The notes beneath the pieces are model-generated. The model was not told the origin of the DNA. It worked only from the letters and a program-made list of their open reading frames with translations, and ran no database searches. Positions 5,982-21,690 of a DNA stretch of 39,327 bases are shown here, piece after piece (the first letter of the stretch is position 1; the number at the start of each line of letters is the position of its first letter). The position numbers were made by a program, and so were the translations under genes. The stretch comes from Myxococcales bacterium (GTDB taxonomy: Bacteria; Myxococcota_A; Polyangia; Fen-1088), in NCBI GenBank assembly GCA_025350815.1, contig JANXXE010000075.1, positions 1 through 39,327 on the forward strand, read 5' to 3'.

Positions 5982-8963
5982 TCAGAACATCAGTCCGACG
6001 TTGAAGTGTAGTCGGCCCGTGCGTGAGTCGCCGGGCTGCGGATCAAGCGGCCAGGCCCACGACAGGCTGATGTCCCCGATGGGCAGACGAATTAGCAAGG
6101 GCGAGATGCCGATGCCGTGGCGAAATTGCGTGGGCTGGAACGCCACCAGCGAATCGGCCACGATGCCGCTGTCGATGAACACACCCGCATACCAGGGGCG
6201 CGCGATGGGGAACTGCAAGTCGACATTGTGAAGAATTCGAACGCTTCCACCGAGGGGGCGGTACTCGACGGACGAGACGCCCGGCGAGCGGTCAGTGCGA
6301 ATGATCTCGACGCGCGCGCGGTCAAGTTCGAAGCCGCGAATGGTCGTGTCGCCACCAGCGAAGAAGCGCTCGACTTTGGGCAGCACGGACGCACCATCAA
6401 GCGGGAAACCCTGATCGTAGCGCACGCTGTGTCGCAGACTTAGCCAGCGTGCAAGCGGTATGACGACGAGGGATCGCAGGTCGGTCTTGATGAAGGTGTC
6501 GTCACCCGCATGCAGGGACAACGCGGGATGGGCCAACTCGATGCCACCATGCAACTTGAAGCCCCGCGTGGGCAGCAGCGGATTGTCCAGGCGCAGCCAA
6601 TCGACGGACGCCGTCAGGCTACCCACCACCGTGCCAAGTCGCACGGTTCGAAGATCCTCGTCAGGGCCCGCGCCGCGCAGCAGGAATTCGGTGCGAGAGC
6701 GATTTGCCAGACCATAGCGAACAGCGGCATTCACGCCCGGATACATCTCCCGCGAAAATCCGACGCTGCCGACGCCCGAATGAATATCGCCGAGGCGCAC
6801 CGTCGCCTGGCGCAGGTAGCTGGCCGAAATCTCCAGACGAAAAAGCGTGCCGAAGAATCGGGGATCCAGCAGGTCGGCGTCCGCGCGGGTGAGCGAGCGT
6901 CCATATTCGGCCTTCGACAGCAGTCGCCAGCCTCGACCAAAAAGGTTCCTATGCTCGTATCCCGTCGACGCATAGACCCCATCTCCGCGCAGAACGCTGC
7001 CGCCTGGAAGAATCTGCTCGCTCGACGCGCCACCGCCCACCCGGATTACACCCCAGTGATCATGGCGTTCTTCGACCTCGATGAGCATGGGAACGGTGCC
7101 GTCTGCTGAGGGCTCGCCGGGAAAACTGATCGGGCCTGCATTGTTGAATAGCTGAATGAGCGCAAGATTCCGTTGACCGCGTTCGAACGCGGTCGTCGTC
7201 AACAGCGAGCCTGATCCCATGGGTACCCACTGCAACAGGGTGTCCTCGCGTGTGAGGAAGGCCCCGCGCACGAACACGGGCCCGACGCGCACCTGCGGCC
7301 CCATCTTGAGCTGCCACAGGATGGTCATTCCCTGAGCGGCGCGTGTGGCAACCGGCTCGGCCGTCGCGTGGGGGTGGCCCGCGTCGCCCAGCAGTCGCTT
7401 GAGACGATCGGCATCTTGGCGAATCAGGCCGGGCTGGTAAGGGCCCCCGACGGTGGACAACAAAGACTCGCGGAGGAAGGTCGCGTCGTAGGGCAGGGGG
7501 CCCGCCGGGCCAGCTGCCTCGAAGGCGATGCTCCGGATGCGGACAGGCAGGCCCTCATCGATGACGAAGCGAATGAACAGGGCCCGCGCGCCCTGCCAGC
7601 GCGGATCGGTGGGCAGAACCGGCCCGACGGGCTGCCAGTCGGACGGGCGCGGCGCAAATTCGCAGCGAACCTTGGCGTCGGGGTAGCCGTTCGCTCGGTA
7701 CAGATCGACGACACGCTCGACGTCCAGTTCCAACTGCAAGGGCGTCGCGTAACCGCCTTCCCCAAGGCCGATGAAGCCCAGCCACGGAAAGGACCTGACC
7801 GTCACCGTCTCCGATAGGCGCTCGGCGCTGAAGGCCTGATTGCCACTGAATGTCACCGCGGCGACTCGCAGAACGGGGCCCTCGCCCACCGTGAATGTGA
7901 TCCGATCGACGTCGGCAGACAGGCGCTGTCGTCGCCATGTGACGGCCGCCAGCATGTGACCGTGCTCGCGGTAGTGTTGCGCAATGGCCTCGGCGCTGCT
8001 GGCGGCGGCAAAGTCATCGTACGACCCGCCGTTGGCGATTGGTGCCACGGCCGTCAGGGCCGCCGTCGAGCGATGCTCATTGCCCTCGAAGCCAAGTTCG
8101 ATCTTCTTGCGCTCGCGGATCATCATCCCAACATTGACCCGCTTGGCGTTGTGATCGACGGCAACCTCGGGATCGAGAATGCGCACCCCTAGGTACCCAA
8201 GCGCGTGGTAGCGCAGGGTCAACTGGGCGACGTCAGCCCGGATGAGACCGCGCCGGAAAGGCACCGGGCGCAGCCACAGCCAGCGCCAGTCGGCGTGGCG
8301 AACCCTGTCAGCGATGTCGGCAGCGGGCACGACCGCATTGCCCGCCACGCCCACCGTCCCGATCGGGAAAGCGGCACCCAGGTCAATCTTCACGTTCATG
8401 TCCAGTGGCGAGGACGCGCCGGCTGGTGGATGCAATTCGATGGCGACGGCGGCTTCGAGGAAACCCTGTCCCTGGAGATAGTCGACGATGCGATCCCGTT
8501 CGCGCGCGACAGCGGCGTCGCGTTCGGCGCCCAGCGGGGGCACGGCCTGGCCCGGTCGAATGCTGATGCGCCGGACGATCTCGTCCTGTCGCAACGGCCA
8601 GTTGCCCGATACGAAGATTTGTCGCACGCGATCGAGGGCGCGCAGCTGAATGTGCAAGTGAATGCCCGCGGCGGAGCGCTGAACGTCGATGGTGGGATCG
8701 TAGCCCAGTCGTTCGAGGGCACGGCGGATCCGGGGCACAGTGCCGATGGGTATGCCGCTGCGATCCGCGTCCCCGGTTTCCACGAATGGGCCACCCAAAG
8801 GACCAAGCGAAGCGACGTACGCCTCGACCCGCCCAGGGGGGTCCACGCTGCCGACAAGGTCAAACCCCTCGATGGGCGGAACCGATGCCGACAGCAGGCG
8901 GACCGGCAGCAGAAGCAGAACGACTCCGACGGCGGCGACACGCAGAGCCCGACCAGCCGTCAT
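5982..8963 (-). CDS. tamA: Omp85-family outer membrane assembly protein, TamA-like, with about seven POTRA repeats
   Basis: This is a 993-residue protein with a signal peptide (about 1-27). About 600 residues of POTRA-like repeats follow. Recognisable repeat starts are VRQIFVSGNW, IGTVGVAGN, IELGFEGNE, VAAVTFSGN, IRSIAFEAA and VGPVFVRG, plus a divergent first repeat. The C-terminal barrel (about 632-993) carries the Omp85 loop motif IRGF (875-878) and ends in a beta-signal finishing in Phe. E. coli TamA has three POTRAs and BamA has five, so this protein is longer than either. Its start overlaps the tamB stop as ATGA, which supports a TamA role in outer-membrane protein or lipid transport with TamB. 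A BamA-type assignment is less likely given the context. Confidence 0.88.
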   Translation of the reverse strand: MTAGRALRVAAVGVVLLLLPVRLLSASVPPIEGFDLVGSVDPPGRVEAYVASLGPLGGPFVETGDADRSGIPIGTVPRIRRALERLGYDPTIDVQRSAAGIHLHIQLRALDRVRQIFVSGNWPLRQDEIVRRISIRPGQAVPPLGAERDAAVARERDRIVDYLQGQGFLEAAVAIELHPPAGASSPLDMNVKIDLGAAFPIGTVGVAGNAVVPAADIADRVRHADWRWLWLRPVPFRRGLIRADVAQLTLRYHALGYLGVRILDPEVAVDHNAKRVNVGMMIRERKKIELGFEGNEHRSTAALTAVAPIANGGSYDDFAAASSAEAIAQHYREHGHMLAAVTWRRQRLSADVDRITFTVGEGPVLRVAAVTFSGNQAFSAERLSETVTVRSFPWLGFIGLGEGGYATPLQLELDVERVVDLYRANGYPDAKVRCEFAPRPSDWQPVGPVLPTDPRWQGARALFIRFVIDEGLPVRIRSIAFEAAGPAGPLPYDATFLRESLLSTVGGPYQPGLIRQDADRLKRLLGDAGHPHATAEPVATRAAQGMTILWQLKMGPQVRVGPVFVRGAFLTREDTLLQWVPMGSGSLLTTTAFERGQRNLALIQLFNNAGPISFPGEPSADGTVPMLIEVEERHDHWGVIRVGGGASSEQILPGGSVLRGDGVYASTGYEHRNLFGRGWRLLSKAEYGRSLTRADADLLDPRFFGTLFRLEISASYLRQATVRLGDIHSGVGSVGFSREMYPGVNAAVRYGLANRSRTEFLLRGAGPDEDLRTVRLGTVVGSLTASVDWLRLDNPLLPTRGFKLHGGIELAHPALSLHAGDDTFIKTDLRSLVVIPLARWLSLRHSVRYDQGFPLDGASVLPKVERFFAGGDTTIRGFELDRARVEIIRTDRSPGVSSVEYRPLGGSVRILHNVDLQFPIARPWYAGVFIDSGIVADSLVAFQPTQFRHGIGISPLLIRLPIGDISLSWAWPLDPQPGDSRTGRLHFNVGLMF

Positions 8964-11900
8964 CGTGACAACCGCAAGCGGATCGGCAGATCCAGCGTCA
9001 GTTCCATGCGCAAGGTGCTGACGTCCTCGGTGATGCCCTGTTGCGGGGCGAAGGTGAGCTGCTCGCCGACGCCCCGGAGTGTGACGTAGTCCATCAGCCA
9101 GACGCTCGCCTCGGCCCGCGAGCGACGCTGGTTCTGGAAGCCTTGCAGGAAGCTCAATTGCAGGTCGAGTTGGCGACTGGCGCGAGCGGCCAACTTCAAT
9201 TCGAAGCCGTCGGCACCGACTGTGGGACGCAGATTCAGCTTCCGCCCCGTCAGAACCTGAAGCGTGTCGTCGATATAGGGTTCGACCAGGTTGGAGACGC
9301 CGTCCCGGGTGATCTGACCGACCATGTCCGTTCCGCTACGAACATTCGAGCCTAAAGTCGGGTTGTGGCTACCGAATTCCCCGGCCTCATCGGTGGTCCG
9401 CCCTGACAGAAGCAGAAGCAGGGTCTGGTTTCGATCGAGACCATCCTCGCTGGACAGGTCGATGGCCGCCTGGCCGACGGGACCGCTGACCCGCATGTGG
9501 ACGACATGTTCGTTCCCCGTCGAATCCGTGATCAGGTTCTGCGCTTCAAGATTCAATTCGGGCGTCTCGCCGGCGGCAATGGATTTGGTGTCAACGAAGG
9601 TGACGTGGTTGACGTTGGGCAGAAGCTCGAAATCACCGCGAAAACCCAGGATGTGAAACCGTCCGTCGGTCGGCCGCAGCTCGCCTGCAATCTCGGGTTC
9701 CGACAGCGTGCCGCCGACGTGCAGGTCCAGGATCATGTGCATCTCGGGCGCCAGATTGTTCTGAACGACAAAGCTGTCGCCGATCGTGCGGACGCGCAGA
9801 TCCAGAGCCAAGTTCTCGAGCAGGGGCTTGTTCTCGTAAAATGGCCGCGCCGCCGATTCGTTCGTGCGCGGCGAGAGCACCAGGTTGCGAACCGCAAAGT
9901 CCTGGATGTAGCGCCCCGACACCACCCGAACATCGCCGGTGAGGGCAAAACCGTCGTCCAGGTCGCCGGCAAGTTCAAGCTTGAATCCCAGATCGTCCAC
10001 CTCGACGGTGTCGGGCACGCGGTACGTGAGTCGGTCGCCCCCAAGGGGCAGCGTGACGGCCCCGATCGACAGCTTTGGATAGAGGCTTTTGATGGCGACT
10101 CGCCCGGGGGCCGTTCCGTCGGCGCCAATCGACAGCACCCCCTGATCGTCGATGGTGGCCCGCACGTCGCGCAACACCAGTTCGTCGCTGGTCAGTTCCA
10201 GTGTCCCGCTGGCGACGGCGATGCTGCGACCGAGGCCGCGCAGGCGCAGATCGATTTCCCCAAGGCTGACCTTCGCGCTGACCTTGGGCGCCTCGGGCGT
10301 GCCCGTGATGCGCGCGTGGATGCGGGCCTTGCCCGAAGCATCCGAAACAGCGTCCGGCGCCAACGTCTCGAGCAGGCGGGCGCTGACCTCGCCGTCGGCA
10401 TCCAGTTCCAGTCGCGTCGGCTTGAAAGTCGCATCGAGGTCAGCCGCACCCCGCAGCGTCAGCGTCGCCCCATCGACCCTGATTGCCAGGTCAGAAAGTT
10501 TTATCCCCCGCTGGTCGGCAGACACACCGCCCGACGGAACGGTAATTTCCGGATCGAATCCGTTCACCTTCAGTTTCACGCCATTGGCGATGCGGATTGA
10601 TCCCGCTAGCAAGGGCCGGGTGCGCGTCCCGGACGCGGTCAGTTCAATGGCCACGTCGCCCGTCAGTCGCTCGACGGTCTGCCCGAGGAAGGGCTGCAAG
10701 AGATCCAGGTCCAGATGCCCCAGAATCGCCGCCGATATCGCGTCCCCGTTCAGCTCGGCCCGGATCTTCAGCTCGCCCCCGTCGGTGACGAAGCGCGACT
10801 CGTCGATGATGATTCGATCTCCCACCAGGACGACGCGGATCTGTCCGGCATTGCGCACCTGCACCCGCCGTGGTGTCGTGTCGGCGCTTTCCGGAAGTGG
10901 CTGACGTGTCAAGGCCACAGACAGTTCGGAAAGGCGGGCGTCCACCGTCAACGGGGCATCCGGACTCCAGTCCACGCTGACCTGGCCGGACGCAAGCCCC
11001 CGCATGTCACCCAGGGCCGCAATTTTCGGGGCCAGCGGTCCAAGCGCCCCCAACAGTTGCTCAATCACCAGGTGGTCGAACGCAACGCTGGCCTTGGCGC
11101 GCGGGCCGTCCGGGCCATACGACGCCGCGGCCGACACACGCAGAAGGTGGAACAGATCGCCCTTCACGCCAATACCGCCCGTCGCGGTGGGGGCCAGTAC
11201 CAGACGCCCGTCGCCCAAAGGCAGCCCCATGGCCACCACGCGCGTCATGACGATCTCGCCGGCCAGCGTCGGTCGCGCCAGCGAGCCCCCGGCCCGCAGT
11301 TGGGCGGACACGAAGCCACTGACCGGCACGCCCGCCTCGACCAGCCACGGCAAACCAGCCAGCGCAACGTCATGAACAGCGACGTCCCAGGCCATGGTCC
11401 CGCCGAATGCCATTTGGCCCGAGACCTCTATCCGGGCACCGCCGGATCGCGCGAGGCTGGCTGCGTGAACAACCACGCTGCGCTGATCGACCTCGACGTC
11501 GATGCCACCCAGTTCCCAGGGATCACCGAGAATTCGCAACTGGGCGCCCGGGGGCAGTTGCAGCCGCGCCCGGATCTTGTCGAGAGGGCCGCGGGCGCTG
11601 GCCACAAACGACACATGGCCGCGCGCCAGGCTGGACCCAATCAGACTGCCCAGCTCGATGGACTGTCCCTCTAGGCGAAAATCTACCAGCGGTTCGCGCA
11701 GCAGATGGTCGACGGACTTGCGGAACAGCTCGATTTGTCCCTGGCCGGACAGGGTGCCCTCGAAGGCCGAACCGGACAGCGAATCCAGACGCGCGGTCCC
11801 GTCGGCGAAGCTGAAGCGGGCCTTGAGCTCGGGCACTTCGGGCAGGTTGCCTAAGCCAATGCCGCGCACGACAGCGTCGCCCTTCAGGCGCGGCTGCTTG

Positions 11901-13519
11901 AAGGGTCCCTCGACGTCGATCGATAGCGCCGCGGCCCGCGCCAGGGGCGGCAGCCCCAAAGACGTCAACAGCAACGGCAGATTGCTGGTGCTCGCCCGCA
12001 AGCCCAGCGCCGCGAGACGCCGGGCCAGTTCCACTTCGCCGCGAATTTCGGCGCTGGCACCTGGAATTTCGAAGTTCAGGCCCTTCGTGGAAATCCGTTC
12101 GGCAGACGCAGATGCCTGGCCGCTGACCCGCAGCGACGACGGAAGGCCGCCCGCACGGGATCGCGCCAGTGCCAGATCGATGCCGTCGACGGAGACGTTC
12201 GGGTGCGGACCCAGCGCCGCCACCACCGATAACCCACCGGTGATTCTTCCGGCCGCGGTTCGGCGAAAACCTGGCGGCACATAGCTGTCCGTCGTAAAGC
12301 GATCCAGACGCAGGCGCGCCGTTGCGGACATTTCGCCCGGCCGGGCCCCGGCCTTCACCGCGGCCTTCAGGGCGAACCGTCCACCGCCAGGCGCGGCGAA
12401 GGTCAGCTCGTCGACAAGTACCGACAACGGATCGACGACGACCTTGAATCCGACGACAAGATCCCGCGCCGCGTACGCCCCGAAGCTGACGTCGAGCCCG
12501 GCGAGGCGTCCCGCAATCTTGAGGCGCGCGAAGGGATCCTTGAGATCTGCAACCAATGTAGCGCCACGGCCCTCCAGACGGAGACCGGGAATGTTCCGCC
12601 CAGCCGCGACGGCGCCGAGCGCGTCGGCCGCCTCGGCGAATTCCGCATGCAGATCGATGCCCGCCGGGGCCGGGTCACCCTTGTAGCCATAGATGCCCGT
12701 GAAGAAGCCCTTACCAGACAGGGTCGTGCGCCGGGTCATCGCCGCTTTCAGATCGAGAAAAATGTTGTTGGGCCAGTCGCGCGTCGTCGCGACGCGGTTG
12801 ACCGACACCCGATCGAAGGGCAGGACGTCGTCGAGGATGCGCAGATAACCGCCGTTGCGGGCCTCTAGGCCAACGACGTCCCATCCGACGAAATCACCGT
12901 CGACCATCAGGCTGACCGCCGTTTTGATATTGCGAAGTTCCAGGGCCCAGGCATCGGGGAAGTCAAATACGGCCGTCAGTCCGTCGAGGTCGGCGTTGGC
13001 GATCTCCAGGACAAATCCGCCGCCGCCGTCGGCCGGCGTCGGGGCGACCGGGGCCGGTGGCGTTGCCGCGGAGACCTTGGACGCGAACGAAGTGAGAAAG
13101 CCGTTGTCCTCCGGGTGGGTCTTGAGAGGCGCGAATCGCCAGAACGAATCCGGACCCAGGCGCAAGTCGCTCAAATAGATTTTGGTCTTGATGGCCGATC
13201 GCGGACGCACTTTGACCTCGATGCGGGGCGCCTCCAGCACCAGAACGCCCTCCGCGTCGGTGATCTTGACGCCCTCGATCCAAACGGGCGTCGGCGCGTC
13301 GGTCAGCAGGTTGACCAGCAAGCGTGCCGGCCAGCGAACCGAACGAACCTGCACCTTGCCCCGCGTGTCGGCAAGAACGCCGCCTAGCAGCCGGCCCAAT
13401 CGCTCGCCTTGTAGCAGCAGGACCGCGGCCGCCACCGACAGCGCCACCAGGCCGACCAGTCCCAGCACCACGATGACCAGCACGCGGGCGAAGCGACGAC
13501 GAGGGCGAGGGGGGTCCAC
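8960..13519 (-). CDS. tamB: TamB-family translocation/assembly module protein (DUF490)
   Basis: This is a 1519-residue protein with an N-terminal membrane anchor (about 11-33) after a basic PRPRRRFAR leader. A very long repetitive beta-rich body follows, typical of AsmA/TamB proteins. The C-terminus has the conserved DUF490 region, with LLLLLSGRTTDEAGEF, QITRDGVSNLVEPYIDDTLQ and a final beta-strand segment. TamB spans the periplasm and is now placed among bridge-like lipid transfer proteins working with TamA. The start is GTG at 13519 with only a weak Shine-Dalgarno sequence. The stop overlaps tamA by four bases. The order tamB then tamA is the reverse of the E. coli order. Confidence 0.92.
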   Translation of the reverse strand: MDPPRPRRRFARVLVIVVLGLVGLVALSVAAAVLLLQGERLGRLLGGVLADTRGKVQVRSVRWPARLLVNLLTDAPTPVWIEGVKITDAEGVLVLEAPRIEVKVRPRSAIKTKIYLSDLRLGPDSFWRFAPLKTHPEDNGFLTSFASKVSAATPPAPVAPTPADGGGGFVLEIANADLDGLTAVFDFPDAWALELRNIKTAVSLMVDGDFVGWDVVGLEARNGGYLRILDDVLPFDRVSVNRVATTRDWPNNIFLDLKAAMTRRTTLSGKGFFTGIYGYKGDPAPAGIDLHAEFAEAADALGAVAAGRNIPGLRLEGRGATLVADLKDPFARLKIAGRLAGLDVSFGAYAARDLVVGFKVVVDPLSVLVDELTFAAPGGGRFALKAAVKAGARPGEMSATARLRLDRFTTDSYVPPGFRRTAAGRITGGLSVVAALGPHPNVSVDGIDLALARSRAGGLPSSLRVSGQASASAERISTKGLNFEIPGASAEIRGEVELARRLAALGLRASTSNLPLLLTSLGLPPLARAAALSIDVEGPFKQPRLKGDAVVRGIGLGNLPEVPELKARFSFADGTARLDSLSGSAFEGTLSGQGQIELFRKSVDHLLREPLVDFRLEGQSIELGSLIGSSLARGHVSFVASARGPLDKIRARLQLPPGAQLRILGDPWELGGIDVEVDQRSVVVHAASLARSGGARIEVSGQMAFGGTMAWDVAVHDVALAGLPWLVEAGVPVSGFVSAQLRAGGSLARPTLAGEIVMTRVVAMGLPLGDGRLVLAPTATGGIGVKGDLFHLLRVSAAASYGPDGPRAKASVAFDHLVIEQLLGALGPLAPKIAALGDMRGLASGQVSVDWSPDAPLTVDARLSELSVALTRQPLPESADTTPRRVQVRNAGQIRVVLVGDRIIIDESRFVTDGGELKIRAELNGDAISAAILGHLDLDLLQPFLGQTVERLTGDVAIELTASGTRTRPLLAGSIRIANGVKLKVNGFDPEITVPSGGVSADQRGIKLSDLAIRVDGATLTLRGAADLDATFKPTRLELDADGEVSARLLETLAPDAVSDASGKARIHARITGTPEAPKVSAKVSLGEIDLRLRGLGRSIAVASGTLELTSDELVLRDVRATIDDQGVLSIGADGTAPGRVAIKSLYPKLSIGAVTLPLGGDRLTYRVPDTVEVDDLGFKLELAGDLDDGFALTGDVRVVSGRYIQDFAVRNLVLSPRTNESAARPFYENKPLLENLALDLRVRTIGDSFVVQNNLAPEMHMILDLHVGGTLSEPEIAGELRPTDGRFHILGFRGDFELLPNVNHVTFVDTKSIAAGETPELNLEAQNLITDSTGNEHVVHMRVSGPVGQAAIDLSSEDGLDRNQTLLLLLSGRTTDEAGEFGSHNPTLGSNVRSGTDMVGQITRDGVSNLVEPYIDDTLQVLTGRKLNLRPTVGADGFELKLAARASRQLDLQLSFLQGFQNQRRSRAEASVWLMDYVTLRGVGEQLTFAPQQGITEDVSTLRMELTLDLPIRLRLSR

Positions 13520-13602: not shown

Positions 13603-16344
13603 ATGGACGGCTCCCTGTATCTGGTCGATGCGCTCAACTACCTGTTCAGGGCGTTTCATGCCCTGCCGCCGTTGACCACCAGCAAGGGCGCGCAGACCGG
13701 CGCCGTGTATGGCCTGTGCCAGATGCTGTTGCGTATCGAGCGCGAACACATGCCCACGCACCTGTGCGTGGTCTTCGACGCCCCTGGCCGGACCTTCCGC
13801 GACGATTTGTACCCTGAGTACAAGGCCACGCGTCCCCCGATGCCGCCCGAATTGCTGGGGCAGATTGGGATGGTCCACAAGGTAGTCGAGGCCTTCGGGC
13901 TGCCGATCCTGTCCGTTCCCGGCGTCGAGGCAGACGACGTGGTGGCCACCGTCGCCCGGCAGGCGATCGCCGCCGGACTGCAAGTCGTAATCTGCTCGTC
14001 CGACAAAGATCTGATGCAGCTATGCAGCGACAAGGTTCGCGTGCTCGACACGATGAAGAACCGCATGCTGGGCCCCGCCGAGGTGCAGGAAAAATTTGGC
14101 GTGCCGCCTGAGCGCCTCGGTGACGTCCTGGCCCTCATGGGTGATGGCGTCGACAACGTCCCGGGCGTCGACGGGGTTGGTCCGAAGACGGCCGCCGAGC
14201 TCATCAAGACCTTCGGCTCGCTGGATGCCCTGATGGCGCGCGTGTCAGAGGTAAAGGGGAAAAAAGGGCAGGCCATCGCTGCCGCCCGCGATGCCGTCGC
14301 CCTGTCTCGCAAACTGGTTCAGCTCAAGGACGACGTGGAACTGCCCCGCACGCTGGACAGCCTGCGGCGTGCCGCGCCCGATCGCACGCGGCTTATCGAC
14401 CTGTTCCGCGAGCTGGAATTCAGCCGGATGCTGGCGCAAGAGCTGGCAGCGGCCGAAGCTTCGCCACATCCAGCGCCCGCGCCTCGGGACGCAGCGCTGC
14501 CCGTTGTCCCCGATGCGACGGCTCCCGAACGCGCCCCTGCCGCCGCGGTGGCAACCACGGTGGTTCTGGACGTGGCCACTCTTCGGCAAGTGGTCGACGC
14601 CGTGCGAGCGGCGGGCAGTTGCGGCCTTGCGATCGTCGCGGATGGTGACGAGGCGACCCGCGCGGCGCTGGTGGGGTTGGCCCTCTGTCTGCCGGGCGGC
14701 GGCCGCGTCTACATTCCGGTCGGTCATCGCTTTCTCGGCGCCCCCGCCACACTTAAAGAGACAGAGGTATTGGCAACCCTTGGGCCGCTGCTGGCCGACG
14801 CGCAGGTGGCCAAGCACGTCCACGACGGGAAATTCGCCGCGGTGTTGTTGCAGGTGCGCGGTTTTGCGCTCGCAGGGCTGGCCTCCGATTCGCTGCTGGC
14901 GTCGTACGTTCTCGATGCCTCCCGTCCCCGGCACGATCTGGCATCCGTGGCCGCGGCCGAAGGGATCGACGCCATCGCACCGCGCGCCACGTGGTTGGGC
15001 AGCGGGCGCGCCGTGCGCAGCAGCAGCGAGATAGCGCCTGACGAGGTCGCCCCGTATCTGGGCGCCGAGGCCGCCGCCGCACAAGCCCTGGCGCCGATTC
15101 ACGGGGACAAGCTGCGCGCGGCGGGGCTGTGGGAGCTGTATCAGACGCTGGAGCTGCCGCTGGCCCAGGTGCTGGCGCGTATCGAATGCCGGGGCATACG
15201 CCTCGACGTGGATTACCTGCGGCACCTTGGCCAGGAAGTGGGCAGCGCCATCCAGGCGGCCGAAAGCGAGATCCACCGACTGGCGGGCGCCACCTTCAAT
15301 ATCGCGTCGCCCAAGCAACTGGCCGAGATCCTGTTCGTCAAGCTGGGCTTGCCCATCGTCCGTCGCACCAAGACCGGGCCGTCCACGGACGCCGACGTGC
15401 TGGAGGAACTGGCGGCGCTGCACGATGTCCCCGCGAAGATCGTCGAATACCGGATGTTGACCAAGCTCAAGGGCACGTACATCGATGCGCTGCCCGCACT
15501 GGTGAACCCCAAGACCGGGCGCCTGCACACCACGTTCAACCAGGCAGTGGCGGCCACCGGGCGTCTTTCGTCGAGCGATCCGAACTTGCAGAACATCCCC
15601 ATTCGCACCGACGTCGGCCGGCGCATCCGCGAGGCCTTCATCGCCGATCCCGGGCATCGCATCGTGTCCGCCGACTACTCGCAGATCGAACTGCGCATCC
15701 TCGCGCATTTCTCCCGGGATCCAGCGTTCGTCGATGCATTCACCACCGGGCAGGACATTCACCAACGAACCGCGGCCGAGATCTTCGGCGTCCCCCTCGA
15801 TCAGGTCACCACCGAGCAGCGCCGCGTCGCCAAGGCGATCAACTTCGGCCTGGTCTTCGGCCAGACGGATTTCGGTCTGTCCCAGGCGCTGCACATTCCA
15901 CGGTCACAGGCCAAGGCCTATATTGCCAGCTACTTCGAACGGTACGCGGGTGCGCGTTCGTACATGGAACAGGCGATAGCGGACGCGCGTCAGACGGCGG
16001 TCGTCAGCACGTTGCTCGGCCGCCGGCGTCCGCTGCCGGAAATCCACGCCCCGCGCGCCCAGGATCGCGCCTACGCCGAACGCATCGCCCGCAACACGCC
16101 CATCCAGGGATCGGCCGCCGATATTCTCAAGCTTGCGATGATTCGGGTGGATGCGGGCATAGCGCGATTTCCGCGCGCCCGTCTGTTGCTGACGGTGCAC
16201 GACGAACTGGTTTTCGAGGTCGACGAACAGGCGGTGGGCGAGTTTTCTGACTGGGTTCGCCACGAGATGGAATCTGTGTACCCCCTGCGCGTACCCCTCA
16301 TCGTTCATGTGGGTTCGGGCCTTACGTGGGGCCAGTCCCACTAG
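13603..16344 (+). CDS. polA: DNA polymerase I, with degenerate 3'-5' exonuclease site
   Basis: This is 913 residues, full length. Residues 1-290 are the 5'-3' exonuclease (YLVDALNYLFRAFHA; VEADDVVAT; GDGVDNVPGVDGVGPKTA). Residues about 320-500 are the 3'-5' exonuclease fold, and 510-913 the polymerase. Motif A is DYSQIELR (691-698), motif B RRVAKAINFG (740-749) and motif C VHDE (865-868). In the exonuclease fold, the residues matching E. coli D355, E357, D424 and D501 read V345, D347, A412 and E489, so proofreading is probably lost, as in Taq polymerase. The motif B tyrosine (Y766 in E. coli) is Phe752. The gene is divergent from tamB, and I see no clear promoter or Shine-Dalgarno sequence in the 83-base gap. 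Confidence 0.97.
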   Translation: MDGSLYLVDALNYLFRAFHALPPLTTSKGAQTGAVYGLCQMLLRIEREHMPTHLCVVFDAPGRTFRDDLYPEYKATRPPMPPELLGQIGMVHKVVEAFGLPILSVPGVEADDVVATVARQAIAAGLQVVICSSDKDLMQLCSDKVRVLDTMKNRMLGPAEVQEKFGVPPERLGDVLALMGDGVDNVPGVDGVGPKTAAELIKTFGSLDALMARVSEVKGKKGQAIAAARDAVALSRKLVQLKDDVELPRTLDSLRRAAPDRTRLIDLFRELEFSRMLAQELAAAEASPHPAPAPRDAALPVVPDATAPERAPAAAVATTVVLDVATLRQVVDAVRAAGSCGLAIVADGDEATRAALVGLALCLPGGGRVYIPVGHRFLGAPATLKETEVLATLGPLLADAQVAKHVHDGKFAAVLLQVRGFALAGLASDSLLASYVLDASRPRHDLASVAAAEGIDAIAPRATWLGSGRAVRSSSEIAPDEVAPYLGAEAAAAQALAPIHGDKLRAAGLWELYQTLELPLAQVLARIECRGIRLDVDYLRHLGQEVGSAIQAAESEIHRLAGATFNIASPKQLAEILFVKLGLPIVRRTKTGPSTDADVLEELAALHDVPAKIVEYRMLTKLKGTYIDALPALVNPKTGRLHTTFNQAVAATGRLSSSDPNLQNIPIRTDVGRRIREAFIADPGHRIVSADYSQIELRILAHFSRDPAFVDAFTTGQDIHQRTAAEIFGVPLDQVTTEQRRVAKAINFGLVFGQTDFGLSQALHIPRSQAKAYIASYFERYAGARSYMEQAIADARQTAVVSTLLGRRRPLPEIHAPRAQDRAYAERIARNTPIQGSAADILKLAMIRVDAGIARFPRARLLLTVHDELVFEVDEQAVGEFSDWVRHEMESVYPLRVPLIVHVGSGLTWGQSH

Positions 16345-16410: not shown

Positions 16411-17772
16411 ATGGTTTCGCTGCACTGTCGGCTTCTGCTGATGCTGGCGCTTGGCGCCTCTGCAGGTAGTGCCTGTCGCCAGAGCCGGCCTGTTCCGCCC
16501 GCGGCGCCTGCGCTCGCGCCTGCTCGGATCGCAGCCTCGTCGACAGCCGCGTCCGCCAGCGCCGATAAGGCGACGCCTGTCAGCGCAGCGTCCGAGCCCG
16601 CTCCGCGCCCATTGCGTCGCTGCTTCGAAGCTGTGCCCACGTGGATCGAGTCGGCGGTGGCCGATCTCCTCGACCACGCCGGGCAATATCTGGATCGCTC
16701 CGATTTCGAGGGCGCCCTGGCCTGCGCCGAAGAGGCGGCTCGCCAGATGCCGCGATCGATCGAGGCCCACAACGATCGGGCAACCGCGCTTGGGCGCCTC
16801 GGCCGCCTCGACGAGGCGCGCGATGCCCTGGGCCTTTCCCTGGCGATTGCCCCCAGCGATCCGGAAACCCTGGAACTCGCCGCCGATCTCTACGTGAACC
16901 AGCTTGCCCCGACGGCCGAGCGCGCCACCATTGGTCTCGAATACGCGCGTCGAGGCAGCCGCACCGTGGCCCGCCGCGATCGCGATCGGGCGGCCCACCT
17001 GGCTTTGCTCGAAGGGCAGGCTCTCATCGATCTGGGACGCTCCGCCGAGGCGTTGCCGGCGATCGCCACTGCGTTGAAGATCGCCCCGGGCGACGCCGCC
17101 GCTCGCTATGAACGTGGTGTCGCCTTGTTCGAGCTGTGTCGTTTCGAAGAGGCCGAACGCGCCTTCATGCGCGTGTTGGAGGTCGAGCCCGGTCACGCCC
17201 ACGCCCTGTACCACCTGGCGCTGGTCAGCGAGCGGGCCGGCGATCAGGACCGGGCCCAGGCGCAGTTCAACGCCGCCTCGACGCGCGATCCGAAATCCTT
17301 CCCACCCGTACCGAACGTATCGGGTGCCGAATTCGAGCGACGCGTCCGCGCGGTGCAGGCCAGTCTGCCCCACGACGTCCAGCGCGATCTTGCCGATATT
17401 CAGGTCGAGGCAGCCGACCTACCCGCGATAGAGGATCTCACCGCCGAGAGGCCCCCTTTGTCCCCGACCATCCTCGGTCTGTTTCGCGGATTGCCGCTGG
17501 GGCGCAGCGAGGCGGGCGAGACGCCGGCCAGCTCGGCCGGGCGGGGCGGCCGAGCCCGACAGGGGCGTGTCGCCGCTGGCCCACCGCCAAGTGGCGGTCC
17601 GGCCAGCTGCGCGGTTTCGGAACGGGCCATCGTTCTATATCGCAGCAACCTTCTGCGCAGCATTCAAACCCTCTCCGAACTGGATCGCGCGATCGAACGT
17701 ACGTTACTGCACGAGGTGGGTCACCTGCGCGGCGAAGACGACGGCTCCCTGCGCGACCGGGGCCTGGAATGA
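16411..17772 (+). CDS. Lipoprotein with TPR repeats fused to a minimal zinc metalloprotease (Zincin_1/COG3824) domain
   Basis: This is a 453-residue protein. A hydrophobic leader ends in GSAC (Cys22), and a Pro/Ala/Ser linker follows. TPR-type helices span about 80-290, with patterns such as AHNDRATALGRLGRLDEA and ALYHLALVSERAGDQ. The C-terminus (about 300-453) matches the minimal metalloprotease-like family: EFERRVRAV, ILGLFRGLPLG, IVLYRSNLLR and a terminal zinc motif HEVGH (434-438) followed by GEDD. The family is usually a small stand-alone protein, so the TPR fusion and lipid anchor are unusual. The downstream gene overlaps as ATGA. A TATCAT hexamer at 16396-16401 could be a -10 element, but no -35 is convincing. 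The protease substrate is unknown. Confidence 0.82.
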   Translation: MVSLHCRLLLMLALGASAGSACRQSRPVPPAAPALAPARIAASSTAASASADKATPVSAASEPAPRPLRRCFEAVPTWIESAVADLLDHAGQYLDRSDFEGALACAEEAARQMPRSIEAHNDRATALGRLGRLDEARDALGLSLAIAPSDPETLELAADLYVNQLAPTAERATIGLEYARRGSRTVARRDRDRAAHLALLEGQALIDLGRSAEALPAIATALKIAPGDAAARYERGVALFELCRFEEAERAFMRVLEVEPGHAHALYHLALVSERAGDQDRAQAQFNAASTRDPKSFPPVPNVSGAEFERRVRAVQASLPHDVQRDLADIQVEAADLPAIEDLTAERPPLSPTILGLFRGLPLGRSEAGETPASSAGRGGRARQGRVAAGPPPSGGPASCAVSERAIVLYRSNLLRSIQTLSELDRAIERTLLHEVGHLRGEDDGSLRDRGLE

Positions 17773-18449
17773 TCCCGCGTCGCCTGGCCGGCGTCCTGAC
17801 CATGACCCTGGCCCTGTGGGGCGCGTTGTCGCCCGGCACCTTCGCATCGGCGGCCGACGAGGCCGAAGGACGCAAACGCTTCCGCATGGGGCAGGAGCTT
17901 TACCTTCAGGGCAAGTATCTGGACGCGGCCCACGAATTCGAGGCTGGGTACGCCGCGGCGCCGCTGCCTAAATTCTTTTACAACATCGGCAACAGCTACC
18001 GCCGCGCCGGGGATCTCGCCAAGGCCAGGCGTTACTACCAGCAGCTTATCGAGCTACTGCCCACCTTCGAAAAGCGCGCTGAGGTCGAGGCGAACATCAA
18101 GGCTATCGACGACGCCCTGGCGGCTTTGGATCCCATCGCGCCGGCCTTGCCACAAAAGGCCGCCGCTGTCACCGCGCCAGCCGCCGCAGCGCCGATCACG
18201 GCCCCAAACACGCTGCGCCTGGGCATCACGCCCGTGCCCAAGGCCAAACCGGCCCCGTCGTTCCAGGATACACCGCCCGAGATTGCCGCGACCGCCAGCC
18301 CTGACTCTGAATCTGTGCTGCGAAAACCCTGGTTCTGGGTGGTTGTTGGCGCGCTGGTGGCTGGGGGGACAACGGCCCTTGTCCTTGGCATGCGTGGCGG
18401 CAGTGCCGGCTGTGGCAGCAGCGTCTGCCTGGTCGAAGCCAGGCGCTGA
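17769..18449 (+). CDS. Periplasmic TPR protein with C-terminal membrane anchor
   Basis: This is a 226-residue protein starting at the ATG that overlaps the upstream stop (ATGA). The frame stays open further 5', but that region is covered by the upstream gene. The signal peptide probably cleaves after ASA (about residue 28). Residues 30-120 form TPR-like helices (GQELYLQGKYLDAAHEFEAG; FYNIGNSYRRAGDLAKARRY). A Pro/Ala-rich linker and one membrane segment (about 187-207) follow, then a short tail with two cysteines. This architecture recurs in myxobacterial TPR proteins without a known function. Coupling to the TPR-metalloprotease suggests a shared envelope task. Confidence 0.78.
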   Translation: MIPRRLAGVLTMTLALWGALSPGTFASAADEAEGRKRFRMGQELYLQGKYLDAAHEFEAGYAAAPLPKFFYNIGNSYRRAGDLAKARRYYQQLIELLPTFEKRAEVEANIKAIDDALAALDPIAPALPQKAAAVTAPAAAAPITAPNTLRLGITPVPKAKPAPSFQDTPPEIAATASPDSESVLRKPWFWVVVGALVAGGTTALVLGMRGGSAGCGSSVCLVEARR

Positions 18450-18466: not shown

Positions 18467-19849
18467 CTACGGACACACGGGCGAGCGACGGGTTGGCGGC
18501 AAGCCAAAGCAGCCGTGAACCTGATTGTCCGTAGACAGCCGTTGGCAGCGCGGGGCCGTGCGACAGGCATCGGCGGGCGTGTCGTCCAAACAGGAAAGAA
18601 TGATCCGCTGATCGGGACTGTTGCGGTAGTCCACCTCGAAGCGCGTACCCGAAAGGGCGCCCGCGCCCATGACGCCGTCGACCGAAGGTTGACCGGAGGT
18701 GTAGTCAGCATTCAATCCCTGAAGAAAGGGCGTCATATCCGCCACCACCGCCACGGGAATCGTCCCCGCCAACTCGACGTAGGCGGCGCTGCTCACGGCC
18801 AGGTTTCCGCTGACGTCGCAGGGCTGGAAGCAGGCCCCCTGTCCGGAGTGCGCCTCGACCCATTCGATGCGCCGGCCGCGCGCCAACTGGGCACAGGCCC
18901 CCGGATCCTTGTCGCCTTCACGATCGACCAGCGCCATCCGCGGCACCGTCACCCAGCGCGCGGCAACCGGCACGACCGCGTGCGGGGTTGACAGAGGATG
19001 GGTCTCGCCAGCGCCCGCAGGCACGCCCAGCACTTGGGCCACCCGGGCCCACGCGTGTTCGCCGAGAACCAGGGGACCGTCGCCCGTCGCCAGAGCCAAC
19101 GACAGATCCACGCCTGTCGCCTTCTTCGCCGCATCCCCCACCGAACACAGTTCCAAAGCATCGCCGCGGGGCCGGGGGGCGACGCAGGCGCGCAAGATCG
19201 CGCGCGTCGAGGAAATGCGAACGGAATTGCCCGAACCGTTGTCGGCGAGGATGTCGGCGCCGCCCCGCCCGCGAAACTTCAGCACGGCATAACCGGCAAC
19301 GGCCAGAAAGTCACCGGGTGCGGGGTCACGGTCATAAAAGGTCATGCTGGCCGGGCGGCCAGGATCCCGCGGGACTTCGAAGGCGACGGAGAATTGGCCT
19401 AGAAGGGTTCCGCCCAGGGCGCCCGCAGGCTGCACAGACGGGTCGCCGGCGGGTCCTGAACAGATGTCGAACAGATCGATGTTGCGAACGATCGCCCGCA
19501 CCGCGGACGAGCCCGGCGTCGCATCCAACAGCGCCAGCGAACTGCGATACAAGGATCCCCGATCGGATGCCATCGGGCCGGACGGACAGGGGCCACGGCT
19601 CAGGGTGCTCACATCGAACGCTGTGTCGACCACGACCGTGGCCGTCCGGCCGTCGTCACGGCGGATCGACGCCAGCAGCCCGCCCGTTGTCGCCGCGGGG
19701 TTTTCCCCCGCACGTAAGGGCGCCCGTTGAAGCGCGATGGGACGCATGTCGGTTTCCACCTCGATCGAGGGCGAACATGCGACAAGCGTCACGGCCAGGA
19801 CTGCCGCGGGCCCGACAGACCATCGCGTCCGATGCGGAACGTCGTTCAA
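18467..19849 (-). CDS. Lipoprotein of unknown function, possibly a degenerate aspartic-protease fold
   Basis: This 460-residue reading uses the TTG at 19849, which overlaps the upstream TGA as TTGA. It gives a normal lipoprotein leader with lipobox LVAC (Cys25). An ATG at 19912 would add 21 residues that lie wholly within the upstream gene. Two segments loosely resemble retropepsin/pepsin lobes: TATVVVDTAFDVSTLS (DTA at 75-77, where an active enzyme has DTG/DTS) with a following GGTLLGQFSVAFEV, and VAVVADMTPFL with a following VDGVMGAGALSGTRFEVDY. The remainder is cysteine-containing and not recognised. The fold call is tentative, and the enzyme would be inactive if it is correct. It is probably co-expressed with the DUF3500 protein upstream. 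Confidence 0.65.
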   Translation of the reverse strand: MNDVPHRTRWSVGPAAVLAVTLVACSPSIEVETDMRPIALQRAPLRAGENPAATTGGLLASIRRDDGRTATVVVDTAFDVSTLSRGPCPSGPMASDRGSLYRSSLALLDATPGSSAVRAIVRNIDLFDICSGPAGDPSVQPAGALGGTLLGQFSVAFEVPRDPGRPASMTFYDRDPAPGDFLAVAGYAVLKFRGRGGADILADNGSGNSVRISSTRAILRACVAPRPRGDALELCSVGDAAKKATGVDLSLALATGDGPLVLGEHAWARVAQVLGVPAGAGETHPLSTPHAVVPVAARWVTVPRMALVDREGDKDPGACAQLARGRRIEWVEAHSGQGACFQPCDVSGNLAVSSAAYVELAGTIPVAVVADMTPFLQGLNADYTSGQPSVDGVMGAGALSGTRFEVDYRNSPDQRIILSCLDDTPADACRTAPRCQRLSTDNQVHGCFGLPPTRRSPVCP

Positions 19850-20877
19850 TGGCTGTTCTTGATGTGCTCGCGCAGCAGGTCGCGCCCGAAGTCCCCCGCG
19901 AAATCCCGCCACACGGTGTGCACGTGGTTCGCGTTGGTCTGCGTGTTGTCGTACTCGATCAGAAACGTCGGACCCTGAATCCGGTAGTAATGGGGATCGC
20001 CGCGGTTCGGCCCGCCCGCCCAGGCGAAGTACACATTGTCGAAACCCGCCTTTTGCACCTTGGCCAGACGATCGGCGGCGAGGGCAGGTGGCATGTTGCC
20101 CGCGTACTCGTCGAGGATCTTGTGCAGCATCTCCGCCTGCGGCTTGGTCAGATTCTTGGCCGCGACGCCGACCGGCGCCAACGGATCCACCTTGGACGCG
20201 TTCGCGGTGACCAGCTCGGCCGGCGCCTTGTCGGTGAAAATCGCCTGCGCCCGCTGTTTGGGGTCAAGCGCCAGCAGCAGGGCCCGACCCAGATCTTCCT
20301 CTGCATGCAGCACGCGCCGGCCCTTCAAGGCCCCCTCCCTGACCTCCGCAGGATTGGTGCCGAAGAAAGACGGCGTCGTCGCGATCGTCGCCCCCTTGAC
20401 CACCGTGAAGTTCAGCGACACGTGGTGACCCTCGACCTTCCAGCCCCACGTTCCGTCGGCTGACGGCGTCCCAAAAACCGAGAAGTAGTACTTCTCGGGA
20501 TCGCGTTTGACTGGATCCTTCTCCATGACGGCCAGGACTTTCTCAAGTTCCATGATCGAGGTCGCCTTTGCATAGCCCGTCGCGCTGACCCCGGTCTTCA
20601 GCAAGGCATGCGCAAGTTCGCGCTGAGCGGGGGCCAACACCTTCAGCGGCACACCGGTCCGATCCTTCGGGATGAAGAACCACTCCATGCGCCCCGGGTC
20701 GTCCACGGCAAAGACACCTGCCTTCTTCTGCTCGGCCGACAGCGACGAGACGAATCGATTCGCCGCCGCCGCCATCAGCGCGCCCGGGGTGGGCGTCAGC
20801 GCGGCCTGCACCGCCGCGCCCGCGATCCCGACACCAGCCATCACACCCAGCACGACGAAGACGGTGTTCCTTTTCAT
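19846..20877 (-). CDS. Secreted DUF3500-family protein
   Basis: This is a 343-residue protein starting at the ATG at 20877, preceded by GAAGG about eight bases away. A GTG at 20901 would add eight residues ahead of the signal peptide and is less likely. Residues 1-25 form a signal peptide. The body has the DUF3500 signatures: AQRELAHALLKTGVSATGYA, YYFSVFGTPS, WGWKVEGHHVSLNFT, TPSFFGTNPAEVREG, EEDLGRALL, and near the end HYYRIQGPTFLIEYDNTQ with ANHVHTVWRD. The biochemical role of this family is unknown. Its conserved His, Glu and Asp residues suggest a metal-binding or hydrolytic protein. Its stop overlaps the next lipoprotein start. Confidence 0.85.
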   Translation of the reverse strand: MKRNTVFVVLGVMAGVGIAGAAVQAALTPTPGALMAAAANRFVSSLSAEQKKAGVFAVDDPGRMEWFFIPKDRTGVPLKVLAPAQRELAHALLKTGVSATGYAKATSIMELEKVLAVMEKDPVKRDPEKYYFSVFGTPSADGTWGWKVEGHHVSLNFTVVKGATIATTPSFFGTNPAEVREGALKGRRVLHAEEDLGRALLLALDPKQRAQAIFTDKAPAELVTANASKVDPLAPVGVAAKNLTKPQAEMLHKILDEYAGNMPPALAADRLAKVQKAGFDNVYFAWAGGPNRGDPHYYRIQGPTFLIEYDNTQTNANHVHTVWRDFAGDFGRDLLREHIKNSH

Positions 20878-20943
20878 GGGTGACGACCTTCGCGCAGACA
20901 CAACTAGGCGTCAACCGAGGACAAAGCGGTCCGATACAGCGGC

Positions 20944-21690
20944 ATGTCGCCCCGCACCCCGCACTCGCCCGTGGCATTTGTGTGCCGCCTGCTGTGGCCC
21001 GCCCGCTGTGTCGCCTGCCGCGCCTATGTCCCCGACGGAATCGCGTTTTGCAATCTGTGCGACCTGTCCGTGATTCCCGTACGCGCAGCCTGCCGGCGCT
21101 GCGCCTCGCCCGTCGGCGGACCTGACAGTGCCACTGTGATCACCTGCCACGTCTGCCGCAAGCGCCCGTCGCCGATCCGCGAAGCCAGCGCCGCCTTGGT
21201 CTACGACGGCGCAGTGGTCAGCGCGATCCTCAGTTTCAAGCACGGCAAGCGCCGTGACGTCGCGCGGCCGCTCGGCCGCTACCTGGTCCCGCTTATCACG
21301 GACATGTCGCGCGGGGGCGCCGATCTGATCGTCCCGGTGCCCCTGCACCCACGCCGCCTGCGCGCACGCGGCTTCAACCAATCCCTCGACTTGATCCACG
21401 CCGCGCGGAAGGCCGCCTTGGCCCTGGCGACATGGCCCGCGGTGGCGCCCAACCTGCTGCGCCGGGTGAGGGATACGGCGCCCCTGGGAAAAGAACCGCC
21501 CGCTGCCCGCCGACAGATCGTGGCGGACGCCTTCGCCGCTGACCGGGGTCTTGTCACGGGCAAGAGCATCGTCGTTGTTGACGACGTGATGACGTCGGGG
21601 GCCACCCTGACGGCCTGCGCGCAGACCTTGCTTCAAGCCGGCGCCAGTTCGGTGCGGGTCGTCGCCCTCGCACGCGCGGTGCTGTCGTGA
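20944..21690 (+). CDS. ComF-family phosphoribosyltransferase-like protein
   Basis: This is a 248-residue protein. The N-terminus has a double zinc-ribbon with CVAC, CNLC, CRRC and CHVC pairs (about residues 20-80). The C-terminal type I phosphoribosyltransferase fold has VPVPLHPRRLRARGFNQS and a PRPP-binding loop IVVVDDVMTSGATL (about 206-219). ComF/GntX proteins take part in DNA uptake in competent bacteria, but many family members have unknown roles. No other competence gene is present here. The gene is divergent from the DUF3500 gene and converges on the OmpA gene. A Shine-Dalgarno sequence is not evident. Confidence 0.9.
   Translation: MSPRTPHSPVAFVCRLLWPARCVACRAYVPDGIAFCNLCDLSVIPVRAACRRCASPVGGPDSATVITCHVCRKRPSPIREASAALVYDGAVVSAILSFKHGKRRDVARPLGRYLVPLITDMSRGGADLIVPVPLHPRRLRARGFNQSLDLIHAARKAALALATWPAVAPNLLRRVRDTAPLGKEPPAARRQIVADAFAADRGLVTGKSIVVVDDVMTSGATLTACAQTLLQAGASSVRVVALARAVLS

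Follow-up and report, generated by a model that had tools for sequence, protein, structure and literature searches.

A predicted TPR–mini-zincin lipoprotein and its clade in the myxobacteria

How is a protein to be understood that begins with a lipoprotein-type signal, continues with TPR repeats and ends in a minimal metalloprotease-like domain? Such a protein is encoded by one gene (the zincin gene, Table 1) of the window analysed here, a 39,327-nucleotide stretch of DNA from a Myxococcales bacterium (contig JANXXE010000075.1). An earlier note, made from the sequence, had suggested that the product could be an envelope protease guided by TPR recognition, had regarded the fusion as unusual for a normally stand-alone family and had coupled the protein to a second TPR protein encoded directly downstream. 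Our results leave a TPR-guided envelope protease as the best reading of an exported TPR-zincin with a conserved predicted active site; neither the unusualness of the fusion nor the downstream partnership was supported.

Domain architecture and export signal

The C-terminal part of the protein matches Zincin_1 (PF06262) at E=7.9e-15 and 55.1 bits, the curated cut-off of the family being 22.4 bits. The match falls into two stretches with a low-complexity insert between them, which in the 56-member alignment measures 37–55 residues in the gene's own family and 9–20 elsewhere. The assignment of the C-terminal 150 residues to the zincin, made in the earlier note, thus holds only when the roughly 40 residues of this family-specific insert are included. 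The HEVGH pentapeptide does occupy residues 434–438 and lies inside HEVGHLRGEDD (434–444); the HExxHxxGxxD motif is complete (H434, E435, H438, G441 and D444), and only nine residues follow D444 before the C-terminus. TPR_2 matches at E=3.9e-20 in four stretches, and no M48 domain was matched among Pfam hits up to E=1.

Structural models agree with the profile results. The full-length AlphaFold2 model (pLDDT 86, pTM 0.81, from an alignment of 56 sequences) places the zincin domain (305–453) directly after six TPR-like hairpins (83–292). All 50 Foldseek matches listed for this model were TPR or TPR-containing proteins, with no zincin among them, and for this reason the zincin domain was modelled separately (pLDDT 84). 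Its best match in the PDB is the mini-zincin Acel_2062 (3e11; E=1.6e-6, TM-score 0.73 on target length), followed by TTHA0227 (2ejq). A profile of the domain built from 19 orthologues also finds 3e11, at E=1.6e-13 and with the D-D pair aligned. Pfam, the model and Foldseek together identify a TPR protein of several 34-residue helical hairpins; by profile, motif and predicted fold it is also a member of the Zincin_1/mini-zincin class, as the earlier note had held. Acel_2062 shares the zincin fold, the HExxHxxGxDD motif and an end shortly past the third ligand, but it is a stand-alone protein of about 113 residues that, unlike the product studied here, has no signal peptide, TPR or insert.

Table 1. 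Features of the zincin locus, in window positions
Feature	Position	Strand	Evidence and remarks
Lipoprotein TPR-mini-zincin gene (predicted)	16411..17772	+	453 aa; ORF call, Pfam; orthologues 58-61% identical over full length
Signal peptide, residues 1-21	16411..16473	+	n-region with R7, h-region LLLMLALGASAGSA; sequence
Cys22, predicted lipidation site (GSA-C)	16474..16476	+	56/56 in lipobox-selected alignment
Low-complexity Pro/Ala/Ser linker, residues 23-68	16477..16614	+	pLDDT mostly below ~50; 23% mean pairwise identity
Cys71, possible disulfide partner of Cys105	16621..16623	+	C in 55/56
Six TPR-like helical hairpins, residues 83-292	16657..17286	+	Pfam TPR; AlphaFold2 helices, block pLDDT 92-98; Foldseek to TPR superhelices
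Cys105 in TPR1, possible disulfide partner of Cys71	16723..16725	+	C in 56/56
Mini-zincin domain (PF06262), residues 305-453	17323..17769	+	Conserved C-terminus GLE; Pfam, alignment, models, profile match
Family-specific, mostly disordered insert inside zincin domain, residues ~363-403	17497..17619	+	Alignment; pLDDT ~50
Predicted active-site motif H434 E435 V G H438 L R G441 E D443 D444	17710..17742	+	HExxH 80/80; 56-member alignment
Downstream protein with TPR and C-terminal TM	17769..18449	+	ATGA overlap with 16411-17772; Pfam; lineage-specific neighbour
polA (DNA polymerase I)	13603..16344	+	66 bp upstream of zincin gene
Omp85/POTRA gene and adjacent TamB gene	5982-13519	-	Diverging from polA

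The lipobox reads GSAC, with an atypical Gly at −3. It is nevertheless supported, because Cys22 and, more generally, a lipobox-type Cys are conserved in the relatives. A script found such a Cys behind a hydrophobic stretch in 73 of 79 relatives (an eightieth, L149, is cut by a contig end), 49 of the 79 fitting the strict pattern [LVI][ASTVIG][GAS]C. In two more (L117 and L141) the Cys is visible by eye, two (L119 and L180) show a membrane segment but no Cys, and two (L187 and L189) carry no signal. Cys22 itself is invariant among the aligned homologues, which were picked for the lipobox, so that its invariance is partly one of selection; the count of 73 is free of that effect. The protein is therefore predicted to be a bacterial lipoprotein lipidated on Cys22. 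Two further cysteines, Cys71 and Cys105, are conserved in the same alignment (Table 1), which fits an oxidising compartment, and would most simply form a periplasmic disulfide. As to the membrane, the Myxococcus xanthus homologue has Lys at +2 and Ala at +7; in lipoproteins of this species, the former residue has been associated with an inner-membrane location and the latter with the extracellular matrix (PMC3222651), so the sorting cues disagree.

Relatives and the origin of the lipoprotein clade

Within its own family the gene occurs in six other genomes, with zincin domains 60–65% identical. Beyond the family, we scanned the collection with PTI[LV]GL[FY]RG, a peptide from outside the active site, and obtained 92 relatives, of which 80 were kept; among them are proteins of Myxococcus xanthus, Corallococcus, Pyxidicoccus, Hyalangium and Kofleriaceae. 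Conservation of HEVGH among orthologues was one of the two points on which the earlier note had staked its claim, the other being a significant Zincin_1 match; HExxH is present in all 80, and neither point refutes the claim. Residues H434, E435, H438, G441 and D443 are invariant in the 56 aligned sequences, and at position 444 D stands in 40 of them and E in the other 16, a change at the third-ligand position likewise noted by Trame et al. (PMC3890501). Mean pairwise identity is highest in the C-terminal zincin half (68%), lower in the TPRs (47%) and lowest in the linker (23%). The lipobox and TPR repeats read from the single sequence recur in the relatives, and a check of architecture and taxonomic spread, suggested in the same note, found TPR and Zincin_1 both significant in 56 of 56 relatives, with the lipoprotein form present across myxobacteria. 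For one relative, L144, the record bears the title Comamonas sp. KCTC 72670, yet the locus groups inside Myxococcus in the tree; the record is probably mislabelled or contaminated.

The fusion as such is neither new nor rare. Trame et al. described 17 TPR-containing DUF1025 homologues in 2014, eight of them with predicted signal peptides, and their family alignment lists proteins of Myxococcus, Corallococcus, Stigmatella and Haliangium; they name the mini-zincin family PF06262 as MEROPS M94 (PMC3890501). Their proteins share with ours both the domain combination and the type of export signal, so this architecture has been on record for years and the product studied here adds a new sequence to theirs. 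The passages of their report that describe the eight signal-peptide proteins assign them no lipidation, clade or function (PMC3890501). What our analysis adds is a single lipoprotein clade, its lipobox, a conserved Cys pair and the non-conservation of the suggested partner.

Across the phylum, PF06262 occurs in 123 of 237 genomes, nearly always in open frames longer than 240 aa. TPR repeats lie N-terminal to the zincin domain in nearly all of the 29 loci inspected, the exceptions being L013, with a zinc ribbon and membrane segments, and L019 and L037, whose frames are truncated or damaged. When 19 such phylum proteins were scanned with Pfam, at least 16 had TPR; the 19 include four paralogues from the same class as the genome studied here. 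The union of TPR and zincin is thus the usual form in this phylum. No signal peptide was evident in the TPR-zincins of the phylum loci scan, and the genome studied here itself carries one such cytoplasmic paralogue (L090). These cytoplasmic proteins share the domain order and active site of the lipoproteins but lack a signal peptide or lipobox and fall on separate branches of the tree. Two other kinds of protein turned up alongside them. In one (L013:1063-1791) the mini-zincin is joined to a zinc ribbon at the N-terminus and to membrane segments, in place of TPR; the other (L091-L093, L095, L096 and L098-L102) matches PF06262 weakly and combines Cys-pair zinc-ribbon-like motifs with a zincin-like domain (HExxHH or a similar motif) and a membrane segment at the C-terminus.

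The tree built from the zincin domain puts the 79 rows of the lipoprotein group, from Myxococcus, Corallococcus and Kofleriaceae among others, all on one side of a single branch with support of 100/100, and this clade joins the cytoplasmic TPR-zincins. The tree has no outgroup root; should the root fall within the cytoplasmic forms, the simplest reading is that the export signal was gained once. Seven TPR-zincin relatives (L094, L097, L103, L104, L105, L106 and L107) have lost HExxH while keeping the remaining architecture. They are probable pseudo-enzymes, apparently of several lineages.

Catalysis or scaffolding

Do the lipoproteins cut their clients or merely hold them? We regard it as about an even bet that the protein is a TPR-guided, lipid-anchored envelope metallopeptidase engaged in quality control or processing. 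After Sec export it would receive its lipid on Cys22 and stay on the periplasmic side of the envelope, anchored at either the inner or the outer membrane. The flexible linker would bear the six-hairpin TPR scaffold, probably clamped to it through a Cys71–Cys105 disulfide. The scaffold would bind a client protein or complex and offer it to the C-terminal mini-zincin. There H434, H438 and the carboxylates of D443/D444 would be the ligands of a single Zn(II), while E435 would activate a water molecule for the cut. This layout is analogous to that of E. coli BepA, which likewise combines an envelope metalloprotease domain with a TPR scaffold; the likeness extends only to how the two would work. 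The TPR part of BepA binds the Bam complex and substrates, an earlier example of metalloproteolysis in the envelope that is guided by TPR (PMC7950410). BepA differs, however, in being an M48 protease with an active-site plug and in having its protease domain N-terminal to the TPR, whereas in our protein the TPR comes first; moreover, BepA is periplasmic and, unlike our predicted lipoprotein, is not described as lipid-anchored.

The same architecture could serve a non-enzymatic envelope scaffold, a TPR co-chaperone or assembly lipoprotein whose mini-zincin would be a binding domain that is stabilised by metal or senses it. Among the TPR lipoproteins of the envelope many have no enzymatic function, and the TPR-zincins without HExxH in the same phylum suggest that the architecture is useful without catalysis. 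The 3e11 structure contains no zinc, and its authors reported no activity for the family and allowed the possibility of a non-enzyme (PMC3890501); nor did we find, in the literature searched, a report of peptidase activity for any PF06262 member. The variation between D and E at the third-ligand position also speaks against the enzyme reading. Against a scaffold stand the five invariant residues of the motif and the zincin half being the most conserved part. In a scaffold, moreover, E435 would be invariant for no obvious structural reason, and its strict retention argues for catalysis. Since HExxH is kept in all 80 relatives from the peptide scan yet has been lost in several cytoplasmic TPR-zincin paralogues, its retention also suggests selection for catalysis. 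On balance, a pure scaffold is the main rival but a less likely one.

Gene neighbourhood and wider meaning

Could the surroundings of the gene name a partner or a substrate of the proposed metallopeptidase? The gene at 17769 overlaps the zincin gene by ATGA, and its product combines TPRs with a signal peptide and with a TM segment at the C-terminus; so much of the coupling proposed in the earlier note is correct. That the protease acts in a fixed pair with this protein is nevertheless very unlikely. Of six family relatives, G241 alone has a homologue behind the zincin gene, while the genes found downstream elsewhere encode an ABC transporter, a solute-binding protein, GAF-histidine kinases, a PEGA Ser/Thr kinase and an rRNA methyltransferase-like protein. 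The 17769 family is also large, with eight related copies in the gene's own genome and several in most relatives. We therefore rejected it as a conserved operon partner.

Upstream, polA directly precedes the zincin gene in its own family and in several others (15 of 80 collection loci), and the order TamB-polA-zincin is common to its own family; that a part in DNA repair or replication keeps the gene next to polA is nonetheless hardly credible, given the export signal on the protein and the absence of an upstream polA from the Myxococcaceae among these 80 loci. Since neither polA nor TamB lies upstream at most other loci, those of Myxococcaceae included, we dropped the polA, TamB and Omp85 neighbours as strong evidence of function. 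The neighbourhood differs between families and names no substrate, and no stable partner emerges from it. A DUF3500 protein (19846-20901, − strand) and a ComF-like phosphoribosyltransferase that carries a double zinc ribbon (20944-21690, + strand) are encoded near the locus as well.

Taken by itself, the protein is an expected member of a described architecture. Its clade may mean more. We tentatively propose, while thinking it somewhat improbable as a whole, that lipid-anchored, disulfide-braced, TPR-guided Asp/Glu mini-zincins of single origin act across myxobacteria as envelope processing or quality-control proteases, which would be the first physiological role for PF06262. The family is widespread and its structures have been solved, but we found no physiological role for it in the literature searched. 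The lipoprotein branch is present in the genetically tractable Myxococcus xanthus and could thus decide what mini-zincins act on and whether they are enzymes.
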